Translations under genes and position numbers: made by a program
NCBI RefSeq assembly: GCF_025263685.1
Contig: NZ_CP092109.1
Location: forward strand, 930,001 to 994,000
Origin: Geoalkalibacter halelectricus
GTDB taxonomy: Bacteria > Desulfobacterota > Desulfuromonadia > Desulfuromonadales > Geoalkalibacteraceae
Length of the DNA stretch: 64,000 nt
Reading direction: 5' to 3'
Notes under the pieces: generated by a model
Told to the model about the DNA's origin: nothing
The model's input: only the letters and a program-made list of their open reading frames with translations
The model's database searches: none
Shown here: piece by piece, positions 38,644 through 61,583 of the stretch
Layout of the letters: each line of letters starts with the position of its first letter
Position numbering within the stretch: the stretch's first letter is position 1

Positions 38644-39483
38644 TTAGAGTTTAATCGGCGGCTTCTCGTAGATGTTGGGTTTGAGTTCATCATGCCCGCT
38701 GTGGCAGGTCAGGCAGTTCATCTTGCCGCGGGTGTTTTCCATGGCGCCGCCCATATCGTGGCAGGCCCGGCAGGCCACCACTTCTTCGGGGATGGGGAAA
38801 TCGGCCTTGAAGCTGCCCGCGAGCTGAGCATTGAGAGCCTCGACGGTTTTTTTCGTCAAATTGGCGGCAAGCTGGGCGCAGCGCTCGACGCGCTCCTTGG
38901 AAAAGGTTTTGGCCCCGGAAACCTTGGTCCAGTGCGAAATCGACACGTGGCAAAGGGTCGAATCCGCCTGGGAGGGCTTGATGTCCATGGCCGCATTGGG
39001 CGGCCTGAGGTCGGGCAGCATGGTGTACTGGTAGTAATTGAGCACCTCGTCGATGATCGGGGTCGGATTGGGCGAAACCAGATAGATGGCCATGGCCGCG
39101 CCCTGCACCGACCCGCAGGTGGCACCCCAACCGACGATGCCGCCGGCACCGAAGCGCGTCACCGAGGTCGGATAGGTCAGGTAGGCGCCGCCGACTTTAT
39201 CAGCGAGCATTTCGACGACGGTAGCGAACACCCCGTACATGCAGTCGCCGATCAATTTATTGCTGTATGAAAGCTTAAGGGCCTCATCCGGATCCAGCGC
39301 CACATAGGGCAGCACTTCATGCAGCACCTTGCCCTTGTCGTCAAGCTTCACCGGCGGCCGTGCCTTGAGTTCGTCCTTCTTGTCTTCCTGGGCGCCGACT
39401 AGGCGAAAAGCGCCGGTGCCGAGAACCCCGGCCGCCGCCATGCATCCCGCCATACCCAAGACTTTTCTGCGATCCTTGTCCAT
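38644..39483 (-). CDS. Split-Soret-type cytochrome c, exported
   Basis: A 279-residue protein. The N-terminus DKDRRKVLGMAGCMAAAGVLG resembles a Tat signal. The middle contains the C_GCAxxG_C_C-type pattern (GDCMYGVFATVVEML, GWGATCGSVQGAAMA) of split-Soret cytochromes. Two c-heme motifs lie near the C-terminus: CRACH (238-242) and CLTCH (257-261). Family members are dimeric periplasmic dihemes of unclear electron partner. The gene has its own sigma-54 promoter and terminator and lies just downstream of an NtrC-type regulator gene, which is the likely activator. Confidence 0.88.
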   Translation of the reverse strand: MDKDRRKVLGMAGCMAAAGVLGTGAFRLVGAQEDKKDELKARPPVKLDDKGKVLHEVLPYVALDPDEALKLSYSNKLIGDCMYGVFATVVEMLADKVGGAYLTYPTSVTRFGAGGIVGWGATCGSVQGAAMAIYLVSPNPTPIIDEVLNYYQYTMLPDLRPPNAAMDIKPSQADSTLCHVSISHWTKVSGAKTFSKERVERCAQLAANLTKKTVEALNAQLAGSFKADFPIPEEVVACRACHDMGGAMENTRGKMNCLTCHSGHDELKPNIYEKPPIKL

Positions 39484-39572
39484 TTTTTACGCCTCCCCTT
39501 TCAATGGTTGCGGTTATTGACCCGAGATGGCGGCTCCCTCAGCCGGCCCTTTCTCTTTGTGGTCATTTATAC

Positions 39573-39588
39573 AGCAACGGGTATGCCA
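39573..39588 (-). promoter_or_regulatory. Sigma-54 (-24/-12) promoter for the split-Soret cytochrome
   Basis: On the minus strand TGGCATACCCGTTGCT matches the sigma-54 consensus TGGCAYRN4TTGCW at every defined position. It lies about 90 bases upstream of the ATG. Confidence 0.85.
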
Positions 39589-39604
39589 AAAAAGGATCGC
39601 ATTT

Positions 39605-39660
39605 TTGAAGGGTTTGCCCTCAACCCTAATTTCATTCTGAAGTTTTGTTTCAAATTGAAA
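39605..39660. promoter_or_regulatory. Candidate enhancer sites for the sigma-54 regulator
   Basis: Two palindromes lie upstream of the sigma-54 promoter: TTGAAGGGTTTGCCCTCAA (39605-39623) and TTTCAAATTGAAA (39648-39660). Both have TTGA/TCAA half-sites. This is where an NtrC-type activator would bind, although spacing to the promoter is rather short. Confidence 0.55.
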
Positions 39661-39699
39661 GAAATGGATGGAGTGGAATTTTAATGTAGAGATCTGGGG

Positions 39700-41043
39700 T
39701 CAGGCTTCGTACTTCTTGATTTTTCGCCATAGAGACACCGGACTGATGCCGAGTATGTCGGCGGTTCGCCCACGATTGCCGCCGGTATGTTCAAGTGTTT
39801 TCAATATCAGGCGTTTTTCCATCTCTTCCAGGGAAACGAGCCCGTCTTGATCAGACATCTTATCTTCATCGGGCGCAGCAGTTTGCGGCAAATGAACTTC
39901 CTTGAGTTCACTATTTTCCGCCATGATCACCGCGCGCTCGATGACGTTCTCCAACTCGCGCACGTTACCCGGCCAGGAATAACCGCGCAGGCGTTCCAGA
40001 GCCCGGGCGCCTACGGTCTGTACGCTCTTTGCGTATTTCGCACCGTACTTGGCGAGAAAATGATGAACCAACAATGCGATGTCCTCGCGCCGCTCGCGCA
40101 GCGGAGCAATTTCCACGGGCACGACGTTGAGGCGATAGAAAAGATCGCTGCGAAAACGCCCCGCCTCGACTTCCTTTTGTAGAGGTACGTTGCCGGCGGC
40201 GATGATTCGCACATCGACTTTCTGCGGGTCGCGCCCCCCGACTTTCAAATAGGCGCCCTCCTGCAGAACCCGCAGCAACTTGACCTGAAAAGCCGGCGAG
40301 ATGGAATTGATTTCATCGAGAAACAGCGTGCCCTTGTCCACTGTTTCGAACAGCCCCTTCTTGTCGCGGTCGGCCCCGGTGAATGCGCCGCGCACATGAC
40401 CGAAAAGCTCGGATTCAAGCAGGGACTCGGGCAAGGCGCCGCAGTTGATGGGCAGAAAGGTCCGGTCGCGCCTGGCGCTCCACTGGTGGATGAGCCGCGC
40501 CACCAGTTCCTTGCCGGTGCCGGTCTCGCCCTGAATGAGAACCGTGGTGTCGAAAGGGGCGATTTTAGCGAGGAAATTTTTCAAATCCACCATTTGCCGG
40601 CTGGTTCCGATCAGCTCTTCGCTATGCATTTCCTCTACCTGACGCCGCAGCGCGCGGTTTTCGTGGAGCAAACGCACATGCTCCTGGGCACGGCGCACGA
40701 TAAGGACCAGGGCGTCGGGCTCAAAAGGCTTCTGCACATAGTCGTAGGCGCCTTTGCGAATAGCTTCCACCGCCGACTCGATGGTGCCGTAGCCGGTAAT
40801 GAGGATAACCGCGCAATCGGGGTTGTTACCGCGGGCCCGCTCAAGAATTTCCATGCCGCCGACCTGCGGCATCATGAGATCGGTGATGACGATGTCGACC
40901 TTTTGCGCATCCAGAATCCGCAAGGCCTCCCGACTGTCCTCGCAGGCTTCGGATAAAAGCCCCTCGGCGGCCAGGGTGTCGCGCAGCAACTGGCGCATGC
41001 GCAGATCATCCTCGACAATCAAAATGGATAGAGACGCATCCAC
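39700..41043 (-). CDS. NtrC-family sigma-54 response regulator
   Basis: A 447-residue protein with an N-terminal receiver (acceptor Asp in VITDLMMPQVGG). A central AAA+ domain has Walker A GETGTGKE, the sigma-54-contact motif GAFTGA and Walker B GTLFLDEI. A C-terminal Fis-type HTH (GNRGRTADILGISPVSLWRKI) ends the protein. It activates sigma-54 promoters when phosphorylated. It starts three bases after the stop of the histidine kinase gene and lies directly upstream of a sigma-54-dependent cytochrome gene, its probable target. Confidence 0.95.
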   Translation of the reverse strand: MDASLSILIVEDDLRMRQLLRDTLAAEGLLSEACEDSREALRILDAQKVDIVITDLMMPQVGGMEILERARGNNPDCAVILITGYGTIESAVEAIRKGAYDYVQKPFEPDALVLIVRRAQEHVRLLHENRALRRQVEEMHSEELIGTSRQMVDLKNFLAKIAPFDTTVLIQGETGTGKELVARLIHQWSARRDRTFLPINCGALPESLLESELFGHVRGAFTGADRDKKGLFETVDKGTLFLDEINSISPAFQVKLLRVLQEGAYLKVGGRDPQKVDVRIIAAGNVPLQKEVEAGRFRSDLFYRLNVVPVEIAPLRERREDIALLVHHFLAKYGAKYAKSVQTVGARALERLRGYSWPGNVRELENVIERAVIMAENSELKEVHLPQTAAPDEDKMSDQDGLVSLEEMEKRLILKTLEHTGGNRGRTADILGISPVSLWRKIKKYEA

Positions 41044-41046
41044 GAT

Positions 41047-42444
41047 CTACTCCCGCCCTGCACCCATCCGGCGTGCAGCTTGTCTTGAGTCGGATTTGCC
41101 GAGTTCCGCGCTCGCCTCGGTCGCGGCAGGCAAGGACAAAATAAAGGTCGCTCCTTGACCCTCGACGCTGGTGACATCGAGCGTACCGCCGAGGTCGCTG
41201 ACGATGCCGGAGCAAATGGACAGGCCCAGCCCCGTCCCCTCCCCCAAGGGCTTGGTGGTATAGAAGGGGTCGAAAATACGCGAGCGGATCTGCTCCGCAA
41301 TACCCGGACCGTTATCTTCAACTTTCATCACCACGCGCGAGCCCGCGTGACGGGTTGTTATCCGTACACGCCCCTTGGTGCCGATGGCTTGCAGAGCGTT
41401 CATGGTCAGGTTGAGCACCACCTGCTCCAACTCGCGCGGGTCGCCGATAATCGGCGGCAGAGGTTGGAGATCGGTTTCAAGCTCGATCTTGCGCTTGGCC
41501 ATTTCCGTGGCGAGCAGGGGCAAGGTCAGCTTGATGATCTCGTTGATCCGGCACTGCTCCAGACAGCGCCGCGCGGGATTGGACTGACGGGCAAAACGCA
41601 ATAATCCCTGGATGATTCCGCTGCTTTTTTTTACCTGCTCGGCGATGATCTCCGCCCAGGCTCGCTGGGCGGGGCTCAGGGTCTTGTCCTTGAGCAGCAG
41701 CCGGGCATACCCGAGCACGCTGCCCAGAGGCGTATTGAGTTCATGAGCCACTCCGGCCGAAAGTTGCCCGATGGCCGCTAGCTTCTCCGTGCGGTGAAAA
41801 AGTTCGGTGCGCCTTTTCTCTTCCGTGCTGTCGCGAAAGGTCACCACCCGCCCCGCGGCACGGCCCTCACTGTCACGCAGCCGCGTCACATTGGCCGAAA
41901 GCAGCCGGTCCGCGCCCTGTCGGCTGCGAAACGTGAGTTCGAAACTCTGCAAATCGCAAGCATTTTTCCGCAGCACCGCTTCCATCTCAGGAAATAGCGC
42001 TTCAAGCGTTTTCCCCAAGCTGTCGGTGGCCAGCCATTGGGTGATCTCGTCGGCCGCACGATTGCATGAGACAACCCGGTTTTGTTCATCTAGCACCAAA
42101 AGGCCCTCGGAGAGGCTTTCGATGAGCGTGGCCAGTTTCATCTTTTCGGTAAGATAGAACTCCCGCAGCTCCCTTTCCCCGGCTTTGGCCTCCTGCAATT
42201 CCTCGATGGTCTGATTGAGATGGGCGAGGATCTGTTGAAAAGATTGGGCGACGATCCCGATGGGATCCATTTCGATCAGGGCCTCTTCATCCAACTCCTC
42301 AGACTCAAGCGCCCTGGTGCCCATGACCTCGAGCAACTGGTTGGTCTTCTCCCTGATGTAACGCACATAGGCCTGGTTGGCGGCCTCAAGTTCGGCGAGG
42401 CGCACAGCAAGAAGACTCGGCGGATTCTCATCGGGTTGGCTCAA
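41047..42444 (-). CDS. Soluble PAS histidine kinase
   Basis: A 465-residue kinase without membrane spans. An N-terminal coiled-coil region (residues 1-~110) leads to a PAS domain (about 115-235; LVLDEQNRVVSCNRAADEI). The H box GVAHELNTPLGSVLGY follows, then the NALQAIGTKG, VEDNGPGI and GTGLGLSIC boxes. It partners the NtrC-type regulator encoded next. Its ATG overlaps the stop of the TusA-like gene by four bases, tying it to the sulfur-carrier operon. PAS makes a redox or small-ligand signal plausible. Confidence 0.92.
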   Translation of the reverse strand: MSQPDENPPSLLAVRLAELEAANQAYVRYIREKTNQLLEVMGTRALESEELDEEALIEMDPIGIVAQSFQQILAHLNQTIEELQEAKAGERELREFYLTEKMKLATLIESLSEGLLVLDEQNRVVSCNRAADEITQWLATDSLGKTLEALFPEMEAVLRKNACDLQSFELTFRSRQGADRLLSANVTRLRDSEGRAAGRVVTFRDSTEEKRRTELFHRTEKLAAIGQLSAGVAHELNTPLGSVLGYARLLLKDKTLSPAQRAWAEIIAEQVKKSSGIIQGLLRFARQSNPARRCLEQCRINEIIKLTLPLLATEMAKRKIELETDLQPLPPIIGDPRELEQVVLNLTMNALQAIGTKGRVRITTRHAGSRVVMKVEDNGPGIAEQIRSRIFDPFYTTKPLGEGTGLGLSICSGIVSDLGGTLDVTSVEGQGATFILSLPAATEASAELGKSDSRQAARRMGAGRE

Positions 42445-42698
42445 TGTTTCCTCCCGATGGATATCTCGTAATAGGTGTCGACTTTTTTCACCTGCGCTTC
42501 ATAGCCCATCTTGCGCGCCGACTCAGGGACCGTGCGGGTGCTGTCGCGATGGTCGGTGCGCACCACGAGGCGGGTTTTGCCGCTGCGCAGGCGCTCTTGA
42601 TGATCGTTGAGCGCCTTGAGCACGACCAGCAGGCAAGCCGGGCACACCTGGCCGAGAATATTCAGATCGATGACTTCAACGATTTCTCTGGAGTCCAT
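42441..42698 (-). CDS. TusA/SirA-like sulfur carrier protein
   Basis: An 85-residue protein of the TusA fold with the DLNILGQVCPACLLVVLKAL segment, giving Cys19 as the persulfide site in a CPAC rather than the common CPxP motif. The extra Cys22 is unusual. TusA-like proteins carry sulfane sulfur. It is eight bases downstream of a YedE-type transporter, a common TusA partner, and upstream of the kinase gene with overlap. Confidence 0.85.
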   Translation of the reverse strand: MDSREIVEVIDLNILGQVCPACLLVVLKALNDHQERLRSGKTRLVVRTDHRDSTRTVPESARKMGYEAQVKKVDTYYEISIGRKH

Positions 42699-42705
42699 TG
42701 CGTTC

Positions 42706-43773
42706 TTACCTCAAAACGATACGGGGCAATAACCAGGAACCAACCCAGACCCCCAGCAGCAAGCCTGGCACAAAGAGCATTGACTGCGTGGAAAAAAGGG
42801 CCAGCCCACCAAGCAGATGTTTGTAGTTGCACCCCTGAGCCATCCGCGCCCCCAGGGCGATCAATATTCCTCCTGCAAAGGCCGCGCCTCCCTGACGCCA
42901 GGGTGGCAGGCCATAGAGCCGGAACTCTCGAAGCACCAGCGCATTGAATAAAGCCCCGGTCACAATACCGGCCATCAGAATCATCTCGGTATAGCCCCGC
43001 AATTCGGGGACCCCGAAATTATTGCTGCGTCGAAAATACTCCAGGGCGGCGATATGCTCCGGCGCGACCAAAGACGCCGCCATCCCACCCACCTGGGCAT
43101 AGGCGGACGAGATTCCCAAGGGCATGCCGCTGGTCAGGTAAATGATCAGATTGCACAACGCCAGAACGATTGCGACCTTCCAGGGTTGAATATAGCCCTC
43201 GGCCCCTGCCGCTAAACGCCATGCCCCGCACCGGCGCCACCAAACAATCACCGCCAGGGAGCCCCCGACCAGCAGCCATGCCAGAATCCGCGCCGCCTGC
43301 GGTCGCAACTCAAACAGGCTTGCGGGAATTTCAAGCGCCAAACGGATCTCAAAGGCCCTGATTTGAGGAAAGAATTCAGCATAGAGCAAACTGCCGACGA
43401 TTATGCCTACAAAAGCCAGAACATAGGTCAGGTTGCCGGAGGCCATTTTATACAAGGTGCTCATGACACAGCCCCCGGCCAGCACCATGCCGAAACCGAA
43501 CACCAGGCCGCCCCCAAACCCCAACAGCGATACGCTCTCGAATCCCGTGAGTTGATCCGAAACGCTCAAGCCGAGTTCGCGCACCAGGAGAAAGAGAAAA
43601 AATGTCAGGATAAATGCAAGATAGAGGTGGCGCAGGCGCACGCCGTCCCTGAAAAGGAAAACATCCCTCACCATGGAAGCCATGCAGAAGTCGCTGCGGT
43701 ACAACACTGTTCCGAGGAGCAGGCCAAGCCCGAAATACAGAAAAAACCACCACACGGGAGCGTCCATCAGCAT
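42706..43773 (-). CDS. YeeE/YedE-family membrane transporter
   Basis: A protein of about 355 residues with roughly nine hydrophobic segments. The family signature GTVLYRSDFCMASMVRDVFLF is near the N-terminus, and conserved glycine/cysteine motifs GMVLAGGCVMSTLYK and GARMAQGCNYKHLLGG appear later. YeeE/YedE proteins move thiosulfate or other sulfur or selenium species across the membrane. The start MLMDAPVWW at 43773 avoids overlap with the preceding gene. The chain transporter, TusA carrier and SufBC-like proteins suggests delivery of imported sulfur to cluster assembly. Confidence 0.88.
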   Translation of the reverse strand: MLMDAPVWWFFLYFGLGLLLGTVLYRSDFCMASMVRDVFLFRDGVRLRHLYLAFILTFFLFLLVRELGLSVSDQLTGFESVSLLGFGGGLVFGFGMVLAGGCVMSTLYKMASGNLTYVLAFVGIIVGSLLYAEFFPQIRAFEIRLALEIPASLFELRPQAARILAWLLVGGSLAVIVWWRRCGAWRLAAGAEGYIQPWKVAIVLALCNLIIYLTSGMPLGISSAYAQVGGMAASLVAPEHIAALEYFRRSNNFGVPELRGYTEMILMAGIVTGALFNALVLREFRLYGLPPWRQGGAAFAGGILIALGARMAQGCNYKHLLGGLALFSTQSMLFVPGLLLGVWVGSWLLPRIVLR

Positions 43774-43789
43774 GAGGAAGGTATCTCTT

Positions 43790-44725
43790 TCATCGCAAAA
43801 CCCCACGCACAATCACATCCACCGCTTCTTCCGGTGACAGCCCATGGGCCAGAAGGGTTTCGAGCTGGCGCTGATCGACGCTGCCGATGGCCGCCTCGTG
43901 GGTCACTTTGGCCTGGGGATGAGTCACGTTGACGATGGGCACGGCGCGCGCCACCGCGCGATCCCGAACCAGTTCCATGCAATCCACGTGGCCGCGTGCT
44001 CCGGCGGCGTTGCCCTCGGTCAGGCCGGTGACCTCGGCGCTGGCTTGATCCTGCAAGGCAATGCGGGTCTTGATCAACCCCCGGGCGTTTTCACCGTTCA
44101 GAGCAATCGCCTCGCGAATCTTGATTTGATCGCTGCCGCGACCAAATACACGGGCAACGAGTTCCGTCACCGATCCGGCCTCGGCAGCCACGCTATAATC
44201 GATGTCCAAAGTCCCGACCCGACCGCTGGTGAGGGTAAATTCACTGGTAAATCGCCCTTGCCTGCCGACACGAATCTCGGCGTGGGGCACCACCTCGACC
44301 CCGCCATGAGGGCCGTGCAGATGGGTTTCCCCGTAATGAAAATGGGCCCCCTCGCCGATATCCACCTGGGCTTTCATCAGATGGCGCACCTGCTCGGCGT
44401 TGGGGAACAGGCAATGGGCGAGAAAATGCGCCGCCGCTCCCGCTTCCAGGCGCACATCCATTTCGATCTGCTGCAATCCACGCGGATGGACCACCCCGAA
44501 ACACAGATGCACCGGATGGGCGATGCGCACCCCCGCAGCGACCCTGACTTTGGCCGCGATGCCTTGGGCGGTTTGGCGGATTTCCACCTCAAGGCCCTCG
44601 ACCTGGCGCGCACTGAGAATCTGATGACCGACCGCCAGCAGGTGGGCGGTTTGCGGATCGTCAAACACCTTGCGATCAGCGCCGACCACGCTCAAGGCCT
44701 CAAGCAACTCTTCAGGTTCGTTCAT
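43790..44725 (-). CDS. SufB/SufD-family Fe-S assembly scaffold (SMS-type minimal system)
   Basis: A 311-residue SufBD-family protein, much shorter than the ~430-490-residue SufB and SufD of full SUF operons. The C-terminal core is typical: TGLTEGNAAGARGHVDCMELV, VTHPQAKVTHEAAIGSVD and LETLLAHGLSPEEAVDVIVRG. Together with the SufC-like ATPase it resembles two-gene minimal SUF-like systems of archaea and anaerobes. It overlaps the ATPase gene by 14 bases. No SufS, SufE or SufU is encoded nearby, so the sulfur source may be the adjacent YedE/TusA pair. Confidence 0.87.
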   Translation of the reverse strand: MNEPEELLEALSVVGADRKVFDDPQTAHLLAVGHQILSARQVEGLEVEIRQTAQGIAAKVRVAAGVRIAHPVHLCFGVVHPRGLQQIEMDVRLEAGAAAHFLAHCLFPNAEQVRHLMKAQVDIGEGAHFHYGETHLHGPHGGVEVVPHAEIRVGRQGRFTSEFTLTSGRVGTLDIDYSVAAEAGSVTELVARVFGRGSDQIKIREAIALNGENARGLIKTRIALQDQASAEVTGLTEGNAAGARGHVDCMELVRDRAVARAVPIVNVTHPQAKVTHEAAIGSVDQRQLETLLAHGLSPEEAVDVIVRGVLR

Positions 44726-45434
44726 AGCCGCACTCCAGTCCGTCGCACAGCAGACATTTGCGGTTTTTGTAATGGGCGGCCACGGTGGCCGGAGAGCCCG
44801 TGCATACGATGCGCCCGTCGCAGATCTGCGAGGCGCGATCCGCGGTGGCGGCAATCTCCTCGCGGTGGGTAATCAGCAGCACCGCACTGCCCTGGCGACG
44901 AAAAGCCTGGATCACTTCAATGAGACCCTGCGTCGAGAGCATGTCGATACCCGAATCGGGCTCATCCAGAATCGCCAACCGCGGTTTGAGGCCCAGCACC
45001 GAGGCCAACTCGATGCGCTTGCGTTCGCCCCCACTCAGGGTTTTATCCACCATGCGCTTGAGGTAAAGGTCGGGTTCCAGGCCGACCTCTCTCAACAGCG
45101 CCGAGGCATCCGCCTGCCGAGCACCCAGGGTGAGATACTCCTGAATCAGCAGCCCCTCAAAACGTGCCGGCTCCTGCCACGCCATGCTGATGCCGAGGCG
45201 GGCGCGCTGGTGAATTTCTAGGGAATCAAGCCTTTGAGAGTCAAACAGAATCTGCCCGGAGGTGGGACGAAACCCGGCACAGCCCATGACCAAGGCGGCA
45301 AGGGTGCTTTTCCCAGTGCCATTGGTTCCGATCAAGGCATGCACCTGCTCTGCCTCGACACGCAAAAAAAGCCCATCCAGGATCACGCGCTCACTTGCCC
45401 GATAGACAAGGTTGTCGACCTCCAGAAGAGCCAT
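44712..45434 (-). CDS. SufC-like ABC ATPase with C-terminal cysteine motif
   Basis: A 240-residue ATPase with Walker A GTNGTGKST, signature LSGGERKR, and Walker B with LAILDEPDSGID, which is the SufC-type D-loop. The last ~15 residues (KCLLCDGLECGYERT) hold three cysteines in CxxCx4C spacing. I do not know this extension from classical SufC; it could bind metal or contact the scaffold. It works with the SufBD-like protein encoded next. Confidence 0.87.
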   Translation of the reverse strand: MALLEVDNLVYRASERVILDGLFLRVEAEQVHALIGTNGTGKSTLAALVMGCAGFRPTSGQILFDSQRLDSLEIHQRARLGISMAWQEPARFEGLLIQEYLTLGARQADASALLREVGLEPDLYLKRMVDKTLSGGERKRIELASVLGLKPRLAILDEPDSGIDMLSTQGLIEVIQAFRRQGSAVLLITHREEIAATADRASQICDGRIVCTGSPATVAAHYKNRKCLLCDGLECGYERT

Positions 45435-45475
45435 CGCTTAGTCACTCACCCCAGACGCGGTGCAAGCCGCATCTA

Positions 45476-45709
45476 TTATTGCGGCCATGCGGTCACCAAC
45501 GGTTCACAGACCGCCTCCGCCTGCTTGGCCGGTCGCCCGCAGGCGCCGCAGACAAACGGCAACCGCTCGCGCATGCTCTCGCACAAGGTTCCGCGCTCTG
45601 GTGCCGAGCCGCAATATTGTTGCTTGTCGGTGCGCTCCAGAGGTTCACACAACTGTTCACTGATTTCAGCGACGACGCCACATTTGCTGCACTCAAAAAG
45701 CCCTTTCAT
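45476..45709 (-). CDS. Small cysteine-rich zinc-ribbon protein
   Basis: A 77-residue protein (MKGLFECSKCGVVAEI) with two CxxC pairs (CSKC at 7-10, CGAC near residue 54) and further cysteines in the middle (YCGSAPERGTLCE) and C-terminal part. A rubredoxin- or zinc-ribbon-like metal site is likely. AAGGGAG precedes the ATG. It is the first gene of the minus-strand SufC-SufBD-YedE-TusA operon, 41 bases upstream of the ATPase gene. Confidence 0.75.
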   Translation of the reverse strand: MKGLFECSKCGVVAEISEQLCEPLERTDKQQYCGSAPERGTLCESMRERLPFVCGACGRPAKQAEAVCEPLVTAWPQ

Positions 45710-48492: not shown

Positions 48493-50034
48493 CTACGACT
48501 CAGGCGCCCAAAACCCATGAAATCCGAAGGGAGCTTGATGCTCCAAATGAATTGTGGCAACTGGTCCCTCGGTCAGATTTTGGGCATTCATGACTGCAAG
48601 AAAACTCTTTCGTGCTTCTCCGTCATAACACTGAGTCAAAACCCAACCGAGATCATCATTTTTCTTTGTACCGGGCTTGGCAACAAAGATCGGTTCGCTA
48701 CAAAAAACATCCGACCCGAAATCAAATGTCTCTGATCGTCCAGTTTCAAAATCGAAACGAGTAATTCCGGAAAAAAAGTCGCTATCCCTTACAATTCGAG
48801 CAAAATAACCGAAACGATGTCGATGGCAAACACTTGATGGATTCAGGGTTGGAAACTCAAAATTACCGCCATCCAGGGTTTCCTCGCGCAATGCTTTCAA
48901 ATTTAAATCAATATGATATCGCCTCAATTCACCAGGGTAGCGGTAGTGGCCGAGACGTCCTTCCATGATGGCAAAAAGCGCAGGATCGTCTCCCAAAAAG
49001 TGATCAGGATTGCGGTAACCAACAAAATCGGCCTTGATCGATCCTCGACCATCATCAAAGGCGTTGAGGCTATGCCACATCCAAGCCGATTCCGCTTCCA
49101 GAATCACCGGCTGAGCCCGGCCGTCGCGAGGAAAGACAAGAATCATATTGCCCTTTTCCGGCGCCCATCGCATGGCACCCGTCATGCTGCGCCGCCCCAG
49201 GAGAAAGCCCCATAAATTTATATCGATGGGATGGAGATTAAGAATAATATAACGTTCAGTCGCAAAAAAATCGTGGATATAGGCAAAGCGCGGAAGTTCA
49301 TAATGTTGATGATTCTTCAAGGCTCCGTCGGCACCGAGGACGGTGAGGTGCACCGTGGTTTTTCGCCCAAATTCCAGTCCGTAAAATATCCAATCGCCAT
49401 TATGCGCATCGATTTTGGAATGAGCGGAAATTACGGTACTTTCAGGGGTTAGGCCCAACCAAGACTCGCCAAGTGTTTCAAGGGTTTCCGGATTTACCTC
49501 ATAGGGAGGATGGAATTCGTCAAAAGCAAAGAGGCGACCATTTCTTACCACAACGCTTATGCCCGCTTGGTTGGAAAAATTCCCTCCGCCTAAGTTTGTG
49601 AATAGACCGCCGGGGGCCTGTGTTGACCAGGTTGAATAACGATACTTCCCGGCTGCCGATTCTTCGATATACTTAGCGGTGCGAACAAATCGATTGCGAA
49701 AACGAACACTGTGCCCGTCAAAGAAAAATCCTTGCACCATGCCGTCGCCATCAAGCAAGCAACGTTTACGCAGGCCGTCTCGTTCATATAAACCAGGGCC
49801 GTTTCTATAGAGCGTTCCCCTTAGATCCTGAGGAAGCTTGCCCTCAATACGGGCAAGGTAATCTTTTTCTTCGCTGAAAGAGGTAGCTAATCCTAAAACC
49901 GGCAGGTTCTGATAATCGGCCTCGGTAAAGAGGATGTCGGACAAAGGACCCTGCTTGCTGGTGCAGCCCGGAAAAACCAGACCACACCCGGCCATCCCGG
50001 CCAAGTATAAAAATTTTCGTCGGATAGGATCCAT
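48493..50034 (-). CDS. Carotenoid-oxygenase-family lipoprotein
   Basis: A 513-residue protein of the carotenoid/stilbene cleavage dioxygenase family. The four iron-binding histidines are placed as expected: DAH, YIHDFF, WMWHSL and a final FGFHG. RNGPG near residue 75 and an LDGDGM motif are typical. The N-terminus has RRKFL and a lipobox-like LVFPGC, so a Tat-exported lipoprotein is likely, which is unusual for the family. The base composition is visibly AT-richer than its neighbours, suggesting transfer. ATG 50034 is chosen, with GAGGTG upstream. Its substrate is unknown; a polyene or stilbenoid is possible. Confidence 0.85.
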   Translation of the reverse strand: MDPIRRKFLYLAGMAGCGLVFPGCTSKQGPLSDILFTEADYQNLPVLGLATSFSEEKDYLARIEGKLPQDLRGTLYRNGPGLYERDGLRKRCLLDGDGMVQGFFFDGHSVRFRNRFVRTAKYIEESAAGKYRYSTWSTQAPGGLFTNLGGGNFSNQAGISVVVRNGRLFAFDEFHPPYEVNPETLETLGESWLGLTPESTVISAHSKIDAHNGDWIFYGLEFGRKTTVHLTVLGADGALKNHQHYELPRFAYIHDFFATERYIILNLHPIDINLWGFLLGRRSMTGAMRWAPEKGNMILVFPRDGRAQPVILEAESAWMWHSLNAFDDGRGSIKADFVGYRNPDHFLGDDPALFAIMEGRLGHYRYPGELRRYHIDLNLKALREETLDGGNFEFPTLNPSSVCHRHRFGYFARIVRDSDFFSGITRFDFETGRSETFDFGSDVFCSEPIFVAKPGTKKNDDLGWVLTQCYDGEARKSFLAVMNAQNLTEGPVATIHLEHQAPFGFHGFWAPES

Positions 50035-50076
50035 AAGGCCACACCTCATCATTTTAGTGTCGGGAGAATCGCAATT

Positions 50077-52443: not shown

Positions 52444-53592
52444 ATGAGGGTCTACATTAACGACATTGCTTCATTCCTGCCCAACGAGCCCATTAATAAT
52501 GACCAAATGGAAGATATACTGGGGCTGGTGAACCAGGTACCGTCCCGTACCCGGCGCATCATCCTGCGCAACAACAAAATCGCCACGCGCCACTATGCCA
52601 TCGACCCCGCAACCGGACTGACAACCCACAGCAACGCACAACTGACAGCCGAGGCTGTTCGACGTCTTGATCCCTATCCTGGTTTTTCCATGGCCGATAT
52701 CGAATGCCTGGCTTGCGGAACGTCCTCACCAGACCAGATTATGCCCGGCCATGCCCTGATGGTTCACGGAGAAATCGGCGCTGGGCCGTGCGAGGCAATG
52801 AGCGCCTCGGGTATCTGCATTGCCGGCATGACAGCCATGAAATATGCCTATATGTCGGTGGCTCTGGGCCAGACCCGAAATGCCGTTGCGACCGGCTCGG
52901 AGTTGGCGAGCACCTTTCTTCGGGCCCGGCTCTGTCCGCCAGTCAGTCCAGAAAAAGTAAAAGCCCTCGACAAAACACCTGTTTTATCCTTCGATGCCGA
53001 TTTTCTCCGGTGGATGCTTTCCGATGGCGCCGGAGCCGCTTTTCTGGCACCAGAGCCTCGTACTGATGGGATATCCCTGAGAATCGAATGGATTGATTCC
53101 CTCTCCTTCGCTCACGAACTCGAAACATGCATGTATGCCGGTGCGACCAAAAATCCCGACGGATCGATCACCGGGTGGCGCGAGCATCCCTCCCTTGAGG
53201 CATGCATCCAAAACGAAGCCTTTCTGATCAAGCAGGATGTCAAACTCCTTAACAAGGAAATTATTCCCACCGCCGTGGGGCGAACCCTGACGCGCCTTAT
53301 TAAAAAACACGCTCTTAATGCGAATGAAATTGACTGGTTTCTTCCCCATTATTCCTCAGATTACTTTCGTCAGAGCCTCCATGACCACATGCGGGACATC
53401 GGATTTTTTATTCCTATGGAGCGCTGGTTCACCAACCTGACCAGCAAAGGGAATACCGGGGCCGCGTCGATATACATTATCCTTGAAGAACTTTTCCATT
53501 CCGGAAAACTTCGCAGAAACGAAAAGCTCTTGTGTTTCATTCCGGAAAGCGGCCGGTTCTCAATGTGCTACATGTTGCTGACGGTGGTTTGA
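52444..53592 (+). CDS. KAS III-like 3-oxoacyl-ACP synthase
   Basis: A 382-residue thiolase-fold enzyme. The triad is visible as Cys125 (SASGICIAGM), His302 (LPHYSS, instead of the FabH HQAN) and Asn337 (SKGNTGAAS). The length is above housekeeping FabH (~320) and the His motif differs, which suggests a specialised condensing or acyl-transfer enzyme such as those of secondary lipid pathways. It is coupled to the radical SAM gene upstream and closed by a terminator. Confidence 0.85.
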   Translation: MRVYINDIASFLPNEPINNDQMEDILGLVNQVPSRTRRIILRNNKIATRHYAIDPATGLTTHSNAQLTAEAVRRLDPYPGFSMADIECLACGTSSPDQIMPGHALMVHGEIGAGPCEAMSASGICIAGMTAMKYAYMSVALGQTRNAVATGSELASTFLRARLCPPVSPEKVKALDKTPVLSFDADFLRWMLSDGAGAAFLAPEPRTDGISLRIEWIDSLSFAHELETCMYAGATKNPDGSITGWREHPSLEACIQNEAFLIKQDVKLLNKEIIPTAVGRTLTRLIKKHALNANEIDWFLPHYSSDYFRQSLHDHMRDIGFFIPMERWFTNLTSKGNTGAASIYIILEELFHSGKLRRNEKLLCFIPESGRFSMCYMLLTVV

Positions 53593-53605
53593 TCCACAAA
53601 CAAAA

Positions 53606-53647
53606 AAATGCAGGCCGCTGTCAACTACCAGCGGCCTGCATTTTTTA
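53606..53647 (+). terminator. Bidirectional rho-independent terminator
   Basis: TGCAGGCCGCTG and CAGCGGCCTGCA enclose an eight-base loop, with a run of A before and six T after. It serves the KAS III operon and the convergent lipoprotein gene. Confidence 0.92.
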
Positions 53648-53664
53648 TGCGGATGTGTATTTTT

Positions 53665-54183
53665 TTACAATTGTTTAATTTTTTCGGTCACCGCCTCAAG
53701 CATCTTTTCGTTCAATTTCGCCACGACAAAAATCCAGTCACGGCTTGATCCTACGCCATCATCGGCCACCAGCACAGGCTCAGGGCCTTGTGCAAACAAC
53801 TGATAGTGGGTATCCATGGAAACCGCTCCGGCACCAAAGCCGACAAGGATGCGAGCAGCCTTGTTTCCAGGATTGTATCTTTTTACCTTAACGGACAGCA
53901 GATATTTACCGGGCCCTGGAGTGAATTGATCTTTGTTCTCGATCAAGGTTGCAGCATAGCCGGATTTATGGGAAAGCCCCAAGAAATGTTTTTCCATAAA
54001 ATCTCCAACCTGGTTGAGCTGTTCGACCTCCTGGTTTGACATATCCGGTTGAATGCCCCGGTCAGCCAAAAGATAAATGGCAACCTGACCGCCGTCCGCA
54101 GTTTTTGGCGCCTTGATTTTGCTACCACACCCTGCCAGCAAAACCAACGCAGACAAAGCCAACAAAAAACCAATTTTACGCAT
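53665..54183 (-). CDS. DUF4410-like lipoprotein
   Basis: A 172-residue protein with a lipoprotein signal (MRKIGFLLALSALVLLAGC). The body, with LSVKVKRYNPGNKAARILVGFGAGA, resembles DUF4410 proteins, whose function is unknown. GGAGGG is well placed for ATG 54183. It lies downstream of the acyl carrier protein gene on the same strand, with a truncated repeat between. Confidence 0.7.
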   Translation of the reverse strand: MRKIGFLLALSALVLLAGCGSKIKAPKTADGGQVAIYLLADRGIQPDMSNQEVEQLNQVGDFMEKHFLGLSHKSGYAATLIENKDQFTPGPGKYLLSVKVKRYNPGNKAARILVGFGAGAVSMDTHYQLFAQGPEPVLVADDGVGSSRDWIFVVAKLNEKMLEAVTEKIKQL

Positions 54184-54267
54184 GAAATACCCTCCATCCA
54201 AAAAGATTTGAAAACCCTAATTTCAGGAGATTACACAAAACTAATATTCGAGTCAACAAAAATCTTT

Positions 54268-54330
54268 ATCCCGGATTATTTCATGAGGTTGTGTCGCGAA
54301 ACCGACCAGTGGCGTCGGATCAAGCCAAGC
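54268..54330. mobile_element. MITE-like repeat, copy D (truncated)
   Basis: ATCCCGGATTATTTCATGAG followed by GTTGTGTCGCGAAACCGACC and GATCAAGCCAAGCGC matches one half of copies B and C, then the similarity stops near the acyl carrier protein stop codon. The other end is missing. Confidence 0.7.
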
Positions 54331-54339
54331 GCTGTGATC

Positions 54340-54609
54340 TCAATTTGTGCGCTTTCCGTCAATAAACTCGGCCAACGTGCGCAAATTCCGAAGAACCTCA
54401 CGGCTGCTATCTTCGCCGCCGATGCGGACGTCATATTTTTTTTGCACGGCAACCACCACCTCAACGGCATCGAGGGAATCAAGGCCCAAGGATGAATCAG
54501 GACCGATCAGAGGGGCATCGGGATCAACCGTATCGGGCGCGTCCGGTACGTTGCACGCATCGATAATCAATTCCTGAAGTTCACCATGCAAAATGGCCAA
54601 ATTGTCCAT
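54340..54609 (-). CDS. Acyl carrier protein
   Basis: An 89-residue ACP with the phosphopantetheine serine in LGLDSLDAVEVV at about residue 45. Alanine- and aspartate-rich helix 1 sequences are typical. The C-terminus FIDGKRTN is close to that of the second ACP at 61326 (FIDSKRTA), suggesting duplication within the cluster. AGGAG precedes the ATG. It is separated from the ABC permease gene by a full repeat element. Confidence 0.92.
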   Translation of the reverse strand: MDNLAILHGELQELIIDACNVPDAPDTVDPDAPLIGPDSSLGLDSLDAVEVVVAVQKKYDVRIGGEDSSREVLRNLRTLAEFIDGKRTN

Positions 54610-54638
54610 GAGAAACGACTCCTGAAGATTTTTTCGGC

Positions 54639-54825
54639 CGATTAACCCAGATTATTCATGCGGCTGTGTCGTGAAACCGACCAGTGCGAGTCAGATCAAG
54701 CCAGGCGCGGTGAGTTGCCCTAAAGACGTACTTGCAGTACGTAGAAGCGCAAGGAGCGAGCACGACTTGAAATGGCGCGCAATGGCCGGTTGCAGCAGAA
54801 GTCTTCATGAATAATCCCGATTAAC
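54639..54825. mobile_element. MITE-like repeat, copy C (full length, inverted relative to B)
   Basis: The ends CCCAGATTATTCATG and CGGGATTATTCATG (other strand) form the terminal inverted repeat. Both flanks carry the 8-base direct repeat CGATTAAC (54639-54646 and 54818-54825), a possible target duplication. The inside includes GACGTACTTGCAGTACGT and a GGTTGCAGCAG block shared with copies A and B. It reaches the stop codon of the ABC permease gene. Confidence 0.82.
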
Positions 54826-56149
54826 GGCCCAGGCTGTTTGCGCGTTTGAAAAAATAGAGGGAAAGACCGAAACTACCTGCAGCAAAGGCTAGCAGGGATA
54901 AGGCGCGCGGCGCCGCAGCGAACAGATCGCCTCCCCTGACGAATATTTCCAGAAATCCATCCAGCCCCCAGAATAATGGGGAAACAACGCTGATTGACTG
55001 CAAAGCAGGCGGCATGACATATACCGGCACCATGACTCCGCCCAACGCGGCCATGACCACAACCGATACGGCGCCAAACATGGAGGCCTGTTCGTAGCTG
55101 CGCGCTATGGTGCCGATGAGCAGGCCAAACCCGGTCGCCGCCAACGCCGCGCACAAGGCCAGGGCGTAAGCTGAAAGCAGGCGCCCCTGAATGACCAGAT
55201 CAGGGGTGCCAAGCGCAGGGAGCACAATCTTGCCCACCGCAAGGATGAGGGTGAATTGCACCAGGCAAATACAAGCAAAGGCGGCAACCTTCCCGGCAAG
55301 GATAACCTCATAGGAAACCGGCATGGAGCGCAGGCGAACCAATGTTCCTTCCTGGCGCTCGCGAAGCAGGGCTCCCGACAGAGGAACGACAATAAAAAAC
55401 ATGCCGAACAAGGCCCAGGCCGGGACATTTTGCTGAACGGCGCTGGGCAGCGGCCACGAACTCTGCGGCGAAGAAGACTGTTCGGAAATCACCACCAGGT
55501 TTTCTTCTGAAAAAATTCGGCTGATTTCCTCCTCGCCAAACTGCACCCCTGCGCCCATCAAGCCGCCGCCTCGCCCGGCAAGGGCCGTGTTCATGGCGCG
55601 CGTCAATTCCCGAGCTTTTTCCTCGACCTCGATACCAAGTACAACCAAATTCAGGGAATTTGTCACGGCAGTGCGAAAGATGCCCTGAACCATCGGGTCG
55701 AAAAATACATACAGCGGCAAGGATTCCATCGCTTCAGGGGATGGCCGGCGGCTCTCGCCGCGGAGAGTTTCTCGGGCGAGTACTCTGGAACGCTCCTGAA
55801 GTTGGCGGCTTGCCCCTTCAGGAATGACAATGCCGAATTGGTATTCGCCTGAAGCGACCCGCTTGCGGGCATGGGCCGCCGTCAGCGCCTCGTTGTCGAG
55901 AGTTTCCACCAGAACCAGCGACTCGACGTCTCCTAAACGGCTTCGAATATTTTGCGCCAGAAAGCCGCCGTCTTCATCGACGAAAAGCACCCGCATGCCG
56001 GAAGCGCCTGTCGTTTCAAGAACATTATTCTGCACCAGGGACACAATCAACACCAGAACGGCGGGCATGAGAAACAGCACCAAGAGTCCGGCGCGATCGC
56101 GGCGCTGAATCAATAGGTCCTTGCAGAATGTGGCCCAGAACTGTCTCAT
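54821..56149 (-). CDS. ABC-2-type transporter permease
   Basis: A 442-residue permease with an N-terminal membrane helix (AGLLVLFLMPAVLVLIVSLV) and a large extracytoplasmic domain (~residues 45-230). Five or six further helices follow, including the ABC-2 pattern PLSGALLRERQEGTLVRLRSMP. It forms an exporter with the ATPase encoded just upstream. Its place among acyl-chain genes suggests export of the lipid-like product. Confidence 0.9.
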   Translation of the reverse strand: MRQFWATFCKDLLIQRRDRAGLLVLFLMPAVLVLIVSLVQNNVLETTGASGMRVLFVDEDGGFLAQNIRSRLGDVESLVLVETLDNEALTAAHARKRVASGEYQFGIVIPEGASRQLQERSRVLARETLRGESRRPSPEAMESLPLYVFFDPMVQGIFRTAVTNSLNLVVLGIEVEEKARELTRAMNTALAGRGGGLMGAGVQFGEEEISRIFSEENLVVISEQSSSPQSSWPLPSAVQQNVPAWALFGMFFIVVPLSGALLRERQEGTLVRLRSMPVSYEVILAGKVAAFACICLVQFTLILAVGKIVLPALGTPDLVIQGRLLSAYALALCAALAATGFGLLIGTIARSYEQASMFGAVSVVVMAALGGVMVPVYVMPPALQSISVVSPLFWGLDGFLEIFVRGGDLFAAAPRALSLLAFAAGSFGLSLYFFKRANSLGR

Positions 56150-56175
56150 CGAAGAATCGCCGAAATGGTCGCCTC

Positions 56176-56203
56176 GCCCGGATTATTCATGAATATTTCG
56201 GGC
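56176..56203. repeat. 28-bp palindrome: fused ends of the MITE-like family (copy E)
   Basis: GCCCGGATTATTCAT is followed directly by GAATATTTCGGGC. Both halves match the element's terminal repeat, as if the inside had been deleted completely. It lies in the 58-base gap between the ABC permease and ATPase genes. Confidence 0.7.
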
Positions 56204-56207
56204 TCGC

Positions 56208-57008
56208 TTAATCACGCAATTGACGCCCAGTCAGTTGGAAGAAAAGGTCTTCAAGGTTGCGGCAGCCTTCACGGCCTGCGATCAATTGATCCGGACGGCC
56301 TTGAGCGATGACGCGCCCGTTGTCGATAATGGCGATGCGGGTGCAAAGGTGTTGGGCTTCTTCCATATAATGGGTGGTATAGATCAAAGTCATGCCTTCA
56401 TCCTTGAGCCGCGCGAGATTCTCCAGGATGGTATTGCGCGACTGGGGATCGATTCCCACCATCGGTTCGTCGAGAAAAAGCAGCCGAGGTTGATGAAGGA
56501 TTCCAGCCGCCAGATTCGCTCGGCGCTTCATGCCGCCGGAATAGGTATCAAGACGTCGATCGGCCTGCGAGGATAATCCCACCATGGCCAGGCATTGGTC
56601 GATGCGCGCTTCCAGCAACGAGCCGTGCAACCCATGAAGCCTTCCGAAATACCGCAGGTTTTCCCGTGTGCTGAGGCTTGGATACAGGGCAATATCCTGA
56701 GGCACCACGCCGATATGATTTCGAACCTTGCGCGGCTGGGACAACAGATCGATACCGCACACCTGGAGTTGCCCCTTTGAAGGCCGGAGCAAAGAACTCA
56801 GCATCGAGAGAGAAGTTGTCTTGCCGGCACCATTAGGCCCTAGCAACCCAAATATTTCTCCCTCTACCACCTCAAGGGACAGGTCAGCCACGGCGTCCCG
56901 GGAAGATCCCGGGTAACGGTAACCCAGCCCTGAGGCTGCAACGATCAGAGACTGCGGCCTTGGCACGTCAGATTTTTGGTTCACCGTATCGGTCAGGCTC
57001 AAGAGCAT
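56208..57008 (-). CDS. ABC transporter ATP-binding protein
   Basis: A 266-residue ATPase of the DRA/CcmA-like exporter group. Walker A GPNGAGKTTS, the Q loop VVPQDIALYPSL, signature YSGGMKRRA, and Walker B LLFLDEPMVGID are visible. It pairs with the ABC-2 permease. It lies 30 bases downstream of the BtrH-type gene and is probably cotranscribed with the acyl cluster. Confidence 0.92.
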   Translation of the reverse strand: MLLSLTDTVNQKSDVPRPQSLIVAASGLGYRYPGSSRDAVADLSLEVVEGEIFGLLGPNGAGKTTSLSMLSSLLRPSKGQLQVCGIDLLSQPRKVRNHIGVVPQDIALYPSLSTRENLRYFGRLHGLHGSLLEARIDQCLAMVGLSSQADRRLDTYSGGMKRRANLAAGILHQPRLLFLDEPMVGIDPQSRNTILENLARLKDEGMTLIYTTHYMEEAQHLCTRIAIIDNGRVIAQGRPDQLIAGREGCRNLEDLFFQLTGRQLRD

Positions 57009-57037
57009 GATAAATAATCAGTTTGCCGTAGAAAAAA

Positions 57038-58036
57038 CTACCATTCCCTCAGCAGGCCGCGAAACAGCTTTTCCTCGCGATCCGCGCACTCACGCAAAAT
57101 ATCCGCCAATCGAGGCCAACTGGTTTCCGCCTCTCCGCGCCCCTTACAGCGCCGTGCGCCCAACTGCGCAAATTCGCGCCAACGGTCCCCAATTTGCGTC
57201 AATTCGGCGGAATATTCATGAAGTCGAGGCTTGTCGAGCAGATTTGCGGCTTCCTGCAAAAACGCCGCATAAATAAACCGAAAACCACCGCCGCCGGTGC
57301 CGATTTCTTCCTGCATCCGGATAAGATGTCCCAGATATTGCCCGGCCCTTTTAGCGCCAAGTTTTTCGGGCCATTGCTCCAACCTGCCCGCCAGAAACCG
57401 GATTCCCCGCACGCCGATAATCGGCACAGGCGCTTTGACCATGCGCCGTCCGACTTCCTGAATGCCGGAAATCACCGCAGGGCGCAGATCAACCTGTGGG
57501 GGAACATTCTTCAGAAAATACATGGCACCCTTGGGTGCCAAAGCGCCTTCGGCAAACCGTGCCCGCATTAAATCGCTACGGGAACAAAGTACGGCTTTAT
57601 CAATCACCGGGTCGCTGATACGGTAATCCTGGTCGGTACGCCCATAAACGATCAGATTATGAGCGTTAAAGTGAAACCGCAGAGCAGGTGGAAAGTAAGG
57701 CAGCCAGAAAACTCCCGTCTGAAGGCCGACGGGAATCTGCTTTTCCAGAACCTGATCCAATGCGTCCATGGCCTGCTCAGGACGGCGGAATTTCTGTCTG
57801 GCAACCTCCACCCCCAGGCGCTGGGCAACCCGCTTGAATATGGCCCCCGGCGTGCAGCGAAAGGTAACCAAAGGCAACCGATTGATTTTTACGAACGGCA
57901 GATAGCCAAAGAAAAGCCCCGAACCGATGCCGAAAGCCATCGCCTCGGAAATCTCTATGCCGTGATGAAACAAGAGATTTGCGGTAACTCCGCTTTCGCA
58001 ATGGGCCGATTGGCGATGCGCAAAATTTATATCCAC
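57038..58036 (-). CDS. BtrH_N/DUF4872-type acyltransferase-like protein
   Basis: A 332-residue protein. Its N-terminal domain (FAHRQSAHCESGVTANLLFHHGIEISE, ~residues 5-140) matches the BtrH_N family with a likely nucleophilic Cys in SAHCESG. BtrH in butirosin synthesis moves an acyl group from an ACP to its acceptor. A DUF4872-like C-terminal region (GTGGGGFRFIYAAFLQEA) follows. GTG at 58036 is chosen because family members start just before FAHRQS. In this cluster it probably transfers or releases an ACP-bound chain. Confidence 0.8.
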   Translation of the reverse strand: MDINFAHRQSAHCESGVTANLLFHHGIEISEAMAFGIGSGLFFGYLPFVKINRLPLVTFRCTPGAIFKRVAQRLGVEVARQKFRRPEQAMDALDQVLEKQIPVGLQTGVFWLPYFPPALRFHFNAHNLIVYGRTDQDYRISDPVIDKAVLCSRSDLMRARFAEGALAPKGAMYFLKNVPPQVDLRPAVISGIQEVGRRMVKAPVPIIGVRGIRFLAGRLEQWPEKLGAKRAGQYLGHLIRMQEEIGTGGGGFRFIYAAFLQEAANLLDKPRLHEYSAELTQIGDRWREFAQLGARRCKGRGEAETSWPRLADILRECADREEKLFRGLLREW

Positions 58037-58041
58037 GAATA

Positions 58042-58479
58042 TCAGTCCCTGCTTTTCTCGGAAATTTGAACCGGTAATGCCACCTCTGCGGGTACGTAAT
58101 CCAGGGCCTCGGCCTCCATGCCAAAAATACGCGCGTAGCGCAGGCGAATATCCGGTTTGAGCTTGGCATATACTTTGGGCCGCAAGTGCCGTTTCACGCG
58201 CCATGGAGCAATTTGGGCATAGCGGGACAAAAGTGCAGCGTCCATCTGGCAACGCGCCATGTGAAAGGCCAAGGGACTGGCCTCGCCGTCTCGCACGGCT
58301 TGAATCGCGCGCCCCATGTCTTCAGCAATCACTTCCCACGCCTGAATATTGGCGACATTAGCGGGATCCCACCCGACACTGGGCACCAGGACATAGCGCC
58401 CCTGCTCATCCAGGGCATAAAAAACCTCGCGCCAGGGGCCGAGGATACCGGCATCCTGGGGAACCTCTTCTTTCTTCAA
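58042..58479 (-). CDS. Hypothetical protein of the acyl cluster
   Basis: A 145-residue soluble protein beginning LKKEEVPQDAGILGPWREVFYAL with a TTG start (AGGTGG upstream). The middle has VPSVGWDPANVANIQAWEVI and the end a basic helical region (RVKRHLRPKVYAKLKPDI). I do not recognise a domain; the basic part might form a helix-turn-helix. Five bases separate it from the BtrH-type gene, so the two are likely functionally linked. Confidence 0.65.
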   Translation of the reverse strand: MKKEEVPQDAGILGPWREVFYALDEQGRYVLVPSVGWDPANVANIQAWEVIAEDMGRAIQAVRDGEASPLAFHMARCQMDAALLSRYAQIAPWRVKRHLRPKVYAKLKPDIRLRYARIFGMEAEALDYVPAEVALPVQISEKSRD

Positions 58480-58494
58480 CGACAACCACCTGCC

Positions 58495-61329: not shown

Positions 61330-61580
61330 GCCGTGCGCTTTGAATCAATAAAGGACACAAGGCTATTTACGGACTGCAAAGCCGGGCGGCCTTCCTCCAT
61401 ATCCTTGATTTCAACACCGAAATTTTTCTGGACCAGAACCACCAATTCAACCGCGTCCAGGGAGTCGAGGCCCAGTCCCTCGCCGAAAAGAGGGGCATCG
61501 TCATCGATATCCTCGGGCGTCATATCTTCGAGGTTGAGTTCTTCCACCAACATCTGCTTGAGCTTTTCCTTGGTCGCCAT
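61326..61580 (-). CDS. Acyl carrier protein
   Basis: An 84-residue ACP with the phosphopantetheine serine in GLGLDSLDAVELV. Helix 1 and the linker (EELNLEDMTPEDIDDDAPLF) are very acidic. The C-terminus FIDSKRTA resembles that of the ACP at 54340. It overlaps the ketosynthase gene by four bases and follows the acyltransferase gene by three. Confidence 0.95.
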   Translation of the reverse strand: MATKEKLKQMLVEELNLEDMTPEDIDDDAPLFGEGLGLDSLDAVELVVLVQKNFGVEIKDMEEGRPALQSVNSLVSFIDSKRTA

Positions 61581-61583
61581 ACC

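Follow-up and report, generated by a model that had tools for sequence, protein, structure and literature searches.

A recurring YedE-TusA signalling module, probably a sensor of sulfur-like compounds, beside an SMS iron-sulfur assembly pair in Geoalkalibacter halelectricus

Eight minus-strand genes at positions 38644-45709 of a 64,000-nucleotide stretch of the Geoalkalibacter halelectricus genome (NZ_CP092109.1, forward-strand positions 930,001 to 994,000; the whole stretch is hereafter the window) include two separate systems standing side by side, namely an SmsC-SmsB pair of the SMS type for Fe-S cluster assembly and a YedE-TusA-kinase-NtrC module. We favour, with a probability of roughly 0.6, a reading in which SmsCB is an accessory SMS of a known kind and YedE-TusA-(NTD-PAS-kinase)-NtrC, NTD being a shared N-terminal domain of the signalling protein, is an import-coupled chalcogen sensor. 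This gene set recurs, and anaerobic bacteria probably use it to detect sulfur-like compounds and turn on respiratory genes. The gene combination noted earlier is mostly accounted for by a known system with a module beside it, and this module is the more interesting of the two. A sequence-only reading that preceded this analysis had named seven of the genes and a split-Soret cytochrome downstream of them, and all eight are present as it claimed; each has a Pfam match except the zinc ribbon (no family at E <= 0.01). The source genome is one contig of 4.13 Mb. The features are as follows.

45476..45709, minus strand: small cysteine-rich zinc-ribbon-like protein, 77 aa; no Pfam or NCBIfam family; a neighbour, outside the conserved module
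44712..45434, minus strand: SmsC, ABC ATPase with a C-terminal cysteine region; PDB 9h78_A, E=4.2e-64
43790..44725, minus strand: SmsB scaffold, 311 aa; PDB 9h78_B (MJ0034), E=2.5e-67; SUFBD_core
42706..43773, minus strand: YedE/TsuA-type membrane transporter with three channel cysteines; PF04143 (Sulf_transp) and cysteine alignment
42441..42698, minus strand: TusA-like sulfur carrier with a CPAC motif; PF01206
41047..42444, minus strand: soluble sensor kinase, NTD (42181-42399) followed by PAS, HisKA and HATPase; Pfam, the NTD being without family or PDB match
39700..41043, minus strand: NtrC-type sigma-54 response regulator; Response_reg, Sigma54_activat, HTH_8
39648..39660, no strand assigned: upstream activating sequence (UAS) dyad TTTCAAATTGAAA, presumed to bind NtrC; an imperfect second copy is found 19 bp closer to the promoter
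39573..39588, minus strand: sigma-54 promoter TGGCATACCCGTTGCT, the only place in the 64-kb window that fits the search pattern
38644..39483, minus strand: split-Soret-type dihaem cytochrome, probably exported, the output gene; PDB 1h21, E=7.7e-35; PF09719; two CxxCH

From YedE to NtrC the genes form an operon-like string, in which 7 bases separate YedE from TusA, TusA and the kinase overlap in TTGA, and 3 bases lie between the kinase and NtrC. The order of the first three genes is well conserved. YedE (E <= 1e-20) was found in 86 of the 244 genomes of the class, and in the best 30 of these 86 TusA and then a PAS/kinase-type gene stand behind YedE at every locus (30/30). Pfam searches of six third genes and one module kinase identified a histidine kinase in four, GGDEF-EAL in one and PAS only in two; the idea that the third gene is always a histidine kinase was therefore rejected, the constant part being NTD-PAS and the kinase optional. 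The NTD itself comprises the N-terminal ~75 residues, with the consensus YIRxKTNQLLxVMGTxPLxPEELDDxxLLxLDPIGIVAxSFxQVLEHL, in a set of third genes extracted from 41 of 42 loci (L018 was dropped and L020 is cut at its start). Its 17 sample members gave no Pfam or NCBIfam match beyond chance, and its profile matched no PDB chain.

The NTD occurs in 88 of the 244 class genomes, that is, in all 86 with YedE and in two more, and at 84 of 95 NTD places it lies on the strand of YedE and starts 297-1170 bp downstream. The co-occurrence of the two is extreme (Fisher p about 1e-64, phylogeny not corrected for). Of the 11 places outside the 2.5 kb downstream of YedE, three (G226, G065 and G066) lie upstream of YedE within 2 kb, and the other 8 are on other contigs, are second copies or belong to two genomes without this YedE. 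In a sample of the phylum the NTD was present in 28 of 395 genomes, with TusA beside it in 27 of 28 NTD loci, and outside the class the triad was complete in 12 of 13 YedE genomes; where NTD or YedE loci are counted, some come from one genome. The YedE loci in this comparison that lack an NTD are L229/L238 (G434), L249, which holds another YedE type, and L269. TusA and the NTD are the tightest pair, since G434 keeps them together (L312, C1:2848068) far from its YedE (L238, C1:3046605). Among 20 other Sulf_transp loci of the class, used as a control, none has an NTD and four have TusA. A fixed input joined to variable outputs is typical of sensors, and the variation of NTD outputs among histidine kinase, GGDEF-EAL and PAS-only proteins is more in keeping with a sensor than with a supply line.

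Cysteines of the window YedE align with C22, C91 and C293 of S. thermophila TsuA, so that the three channel cysteines are kept, and the first cysteine of the TusA motif is conserved across the triad TusA sequences compared. This motif is CPAC in the window and CPS or CPA followed by T, S, C or A in most others; we rejected CPAC as a defining motif, as it is found in NtrC-bearing loci and G386 and others differ. The module shares with TsuA-TsuB (YeeE-YeeD) a TusA-like protein encoded behind a three-cysteine channel of YedE type, and differs in having CPAC rather than CPxP, in a third gene that encodes an NTD-PAS signalling protein, and in a window transporter that falls far under the NCBIfam TsuA cut-offs (79.4 vs 400 bits and 50.1 vs 645). 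Its top NCBIfam match, selen_YedE_FdhT, is likewise far under cut-off. YedE and TusA also occur together, as here, in the YTD cluster of sulfur disproportionators, which to our knowledge lacks the signalling protein of the window module.

A regulatory switch accompanies part of these loci. Wide-flank reading of 42 loci found the NTD in 41, and in 8 of these 41 a close NtrC (E <= 1e-180) lies directly behind; the window NtrC, with a receiver, a sigma-54 AAA domain carrying GAFTGA and a Fis helix-turn-helix, is of the NtrC kind. At 7 of the 8 close-NtrC loci a TTTCANNNTGAAA dyad is found next to the module (6 exact, imperfect in G002), whereas 135 other, partly overlapping loci, 1.99 Mb in total, contain 2 exact dyads. 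In 6 of the 8 the dyad precedes a sigma-54 promoter of the output gene, the promoter beginning 52-73 bp past the dyad start. The cytochrome is preceded by an upstream region of its own, with a sigma-54-type promoter (39588-39573) that all 4 genus genomes compared retain: in each, the stretch from ntrC to the cytochrome contains TGGCATA-N4-TTGCT and a tandem pair of TTTCANNNTGAAA-like dyads. The source genome has nine UAS dyads, and a sigma-54-like match lies within 250 bp of the split-Soret one alone. In G075 and G477 the dyad lies 56-57 bp before TGGCACC/TGGCACA-N4-TTGCT, immediately past ntrC.

The genes behind this switch are a split-Soret cytochrome in 4 of 4 genus genomes, ExtJ and then a PhsA-like molybdoenzyme in G075, and ExtH-ExtI in G477. 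The window cytochrome, with homology to 1H21, two CxxCH and a C_GCAxxG_C_C domain, is of split-Soret type, and at 170 vs 400 bits against NCBIfam NF047622 it is a relative of that equivalog. That it would be a regulated output had been proposed from the sequence alone; this is probable and well supported by the UAS dyads and the sigma-54 promoter conserved in the genus. ExtH and ExtI (G477) and ExtJ (G075) belong, above cut-off, to NCBIfam families of the selenite/tellurite operon. The ext models, run on the eight window genes alone, gave none among the matches listed. At two loci, L071 (G075) and L237 (G477), YedE-TusA-kinase-NtrC stands among or next to ext genes (ExtI, ExtKL and ExtJ in the former; ExtH and ExtI in the latter). 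ExtI is tied to selenite and tellurite reduction in Geobacter sulfurreducens, and YedE, TusA and the kinase are not mentioned in the consulted parts of the paper on that ext cluster (PMC5877670).

We hypothesize that a sulfane-sulfur compound (thiosulfate, polysulfide or a selenium analogue) would pass the three YedE cysteines and that the TusA cysteine would take over the imported sulfur. TusA, in either its loaded or its unloaded form, might then dock on the NTD of the soluble kinase, which would phosphorylate NtrC; NtrC would in turn bind the TTTCANNNTGAAA dyads and open the sigma-54 promoter, here of the split-Soret cytochrome. Docking is favoured over sulfur transfer because the NTD has no invariant cysteine. 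Precedents exist for the parts of this scheme. For YeeE-YeeD, the cysteine of the TusA-like protein is proposed to act as a fourth one that takes over thiosulfate (PMC11073785, consulted in part), and the portion of PMC11582611 drawn on here describes a YeeE-like SoxT1B that serves signalling in an alphaproteobacterium, with TusA as the likely acceptor. We infer the same logic for the window module from these two precedents. The likeness to SoxT1B-SoxR of Hyphomicrobium denitrificans, as those parts present it, lies in a YeeE-like transporter acting in signalling with TusA as its proposed acceptor; the output there is the repressor SoxR, whereas in the module it is an NTD-bearing protein of kinase, GGDEF-EAL or PAS type, with an NtrC/sigma-54 output added in 8 loci. 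NreBC of Bacillus licheniformis is similarly a PAS kinase system that regulates sulfur genes and is clustered with a TusA homologue, while the consulted parts of its description (PMC9918477) do not mention YedE or the shared NTD.

How regulators sense external sulfur was called poorly understood in 2024 in the consulted parts of PMC11582611, on a sulfur oxidiser. A strictly linked NTD, swappable outputs and a candidate DNA target make this question directly testable in cultured Geoalkalibacter, and the module offers a control point for split-Soret cytochromes and ext genes. We tentatively propose, at a little under even odds, that the NTD is a new TusA-reading domain placed on interchangeable outputs, and that a persulfide relay acts as a sensor through a TTTCANNNTGAAA/sigma-54 switch that recurs across one phylum. 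It is possible, and held with similar caution, that the transport-coupled relay extends to the control of respiratory cytochromes and ext-type conduits. The sequence-only reading had described the whole gene combination as new to it. SMS, however, is published, and its link to YedE/TusA is not supported. For the YedE-TusA-kinase-NtrC set, which recurs, no paper was found: no module of YedE/YeeE and TusA with a kinase or PAS protein turned up in the literature, as judged from search listings and with subscription journals mostly outside the search.

Several observations weigh against the sensor reading. This YedE is missing from two genomes that have the NTD (G058 and G187), one NTD locus (L313) has no TusA within the 1.5 kb available, and TusA itself is without the CPxP motif. 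The absence of an invariant cysteine from the NTD makes sulfur transfer to it unlikely, so that docking is assumed, and a single-sequence AlphaFold model of the NTD region is poor (pLDDT 64; three helices) and unfit for a fold search. Most NTD loci have no adjacent regulator, and 4 of the 20 control loci also have a kinase-type (2) or NtrC-type (2) gene within 7 kb. As for the switch, the dyad background takes in loci of other phyla; G083 has neither a dyad nor a good sigma-54 site beside its NtrC; in G005 a split-Soret-like gene diverges from YedE with two dyads in between, but no promoter reaches the threshold; a more distant NtrC-type gene in G015 (L082; 5e-68), 119 bp behind the NTD gene, has no dyad; and in G481 an NtrC-type gene precedes YedE at a locus without a dyad.

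Among other explanations, YedE-TusA might be an ordinary sulfur or selenium importer of the TsuA-TsuB kind beside a signalling protein that reads an unrelated cue such as redox. PAS domains frequently sense redox, the three TsuA cysteines are conserved, and the window kinase does not have the cysteine-containing extra PAS found in G005, G083 and G075. However, the near-absolute NTD linkage compared with the 20 control loci, the persistence of TusA with the NTD where YedE is elsewhere (G434), and the chalcogen-linked genes behind the switch in G075 and G477 make this unlikely. It is about equally improbable that the sensed element is selenium or tellurium instead of sulfur and that the module controls oxyanion reduction. 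The ext genes behind the switch, the best NCBIfam match of YedE (selen_YedE_FdhT, under its cut-off as it is) and the lowering of selenite and tellurite reduction on loss of extI, as given in parts of PMC5877670, all point that way; yet ext genes serve metal reduction too (PMC6148476, in part), and the PhsA-like gene of G075 (a thiosulfate reductase model, under cut-off) as well as the rhodanese and cytochrome near the G083 module are compatible with sulfur as well. The earlier proposal that YedE and TusA hand sulfur directly to SmsCB as a desulfurase-free minimal Fe-S factory is the least probable by a clear step, being suggested by operon-like adjacency (SmsB and YedE are 16 bases apart) and by the independence of the M. 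jannaschii SMS from a desulfurase, and contradicted by the distribution of the two systems and by a desulfurase-type gene elsewhere in the genome, as set out below.

The putative chalcogen-sensor module is separable from SMS. SmsB matches were found in 6 of 58 genomes, the source genome included, and neither YedE nor TusA lies near SmsB in the 16-20 kb inspected in any of the five relatives (0/5; SmsB is at a contig end in G033 and only distantly related, with 24% identity, in G022). Nor does either lie beside SmsB at any of 80 named loci within the available flanks of 3.4-20.9 kb (0/80), these loci being the best 80 of 300, several on short contigs, from Nitrospirota, Methanoperedens, Geobacteraceae and others. 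Conversely, G002 and G003, of the same genus as the window, keep YedE-TusA-kinase-NtrC-cytochrome and have no SmsB match. In the loci examined the sulfur genes thus do not stand together elsewhere, which is the outcome that the sequence-only reading had named in advance as counting against it, and YedE/TusA as sulfur donor to SmsCB was rejected; the partner of YedE-TusA is the signalling protein. In G001 both systems lie on one contig 28 kb apart, SmsCB with the upstream methyl-accepting chemotaxis protein gene of the window and the YedE module with its nearby MobB gene, over an interval that includes genes resembling a nitrate reductase (by eye). Because G001 keeps both flanks and yet separates the loci, the SmsB-YedE junction is seen only in the window's genome.

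The SufC/SufB-like pair is, as judged from its closest relatives, SMS, a recently published minimal system. The closest solved structures are the M. jannaschii SMS subunits MJ0035 for SmsC and MJ0034 for SmsB, at the E-values listed above, and the runners-up in PDB are far weaker (next SufBD-type chain 6.8e-20, best SufC chain 3.8e-30). The extra cysteine tail of SmsC had been singled out before and does matter: C205, C227 and C230 align with C218, C239 and C242 of the M. jannaschii protein, and 78 of the 81 SmsC tails read from SmsB loci carry CxxC (86 loci, 5 of which yielded no full SmsC). A minimal machine with a cysteine tail is thus of a known kind, since its cysteines stand at the three aligned places and relatives have CxxC tails, and SmsCB as a new Fe-S machine was rejected. 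In the M. jannaschii SMS, according to the parts of PMC12192291 drawn on here, the three SmsC cysteines bind a [4Fe-4S] cluster, the system functions without a desulfurase and can take sulfide, and an SMS operon with sulfide rescued an E. coli strain devoid of ISC and SUF. A Thermococcus SMS pair is described in PMC12442378, also consulted in part.

The window pair shares with these archaeal systems the SmsC-SmsB order, a short SmsB and the aligned cysteine-rich tail, and SufS, SufE and SufD were likewise not seen at the locus (hidden Markov models on the eight genes; neighbouring open reading frames by eye only). The claim of a minimal SUF-like pair without a desulfurase accordingly stands for the locus, and its novelty does not. 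The window pair differs in being bacterial, in adjoining YedE-TusA, which among the examined genomes it does only here, and in its genomic company: elsewhere in the genome a class-V aminotransferase of the IscS/NifS kind lies beside a NifU_N/IscU-type gene, their domain matches 147 bp apart. Since IscS-kind and IscU-type genes are present, SmsCB is probably accessory, and a desulfurase as its donor is possible. SMS thereby gains a bacterial case beside an IscS-kind/IscU-type pair. SmsCB may be co-transcribed with the putative sensor, which could aid Fe-S building when sulfur compounds are present, a link without conserved support.

Arsenic-type genes, read by eye, are often near SmsCB at the SmsB loci L086-L165, L085 and L007-L011. 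Per 86 loci clustered, the neighbours include ArsR (13), an ACR3-like exporter (13), an ArsP/DUF318 permease (12), an 80-aa thioredoxin-like GCSKC protein (11) and a low-molecular-weight phosphatase/ArsC (8), and an arsenic or thiol-stress link of SMS is possible. In two Nitrospirota loci (L094 and L124) the genes behind SmsC-SmsB encode a protein of 279-308 aa, then a larger kinase and a regulator of the NtrC type (E=5e-155 and 1e-83 against the window NtrC), which places SMS beside another sigma-54 two-component system.

Two gene starts deserve mention. SmsB very probably starts at ATG 44725 and not at 44854, which gives a 14-base overlap with SmsC, and YedE probably starts at ATG 43773, 16 bases past the SmsB stop, judging from orthologues. 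Homologues of the zinc ribbon occur in 22 of 58 genomes (own included), with up to 4 copies per genome, and in G001 and G033, both with SmsB, the homologue and SmsB sit on different contigs; as the family is scattered, the zinc ribbon was rejected as part of the conserved module. Further along the window, read by eye, 48493-50052 encodes a carotenoid-oxygenase-like protein with a start of lipoprotein or Tat type, and 52444-64000 holds mainly minus-strand acyl-carrier/ketosynthase-like genes together with an ABC exporter, reminiscent of a cluster of lipid or aryl-polyene type.

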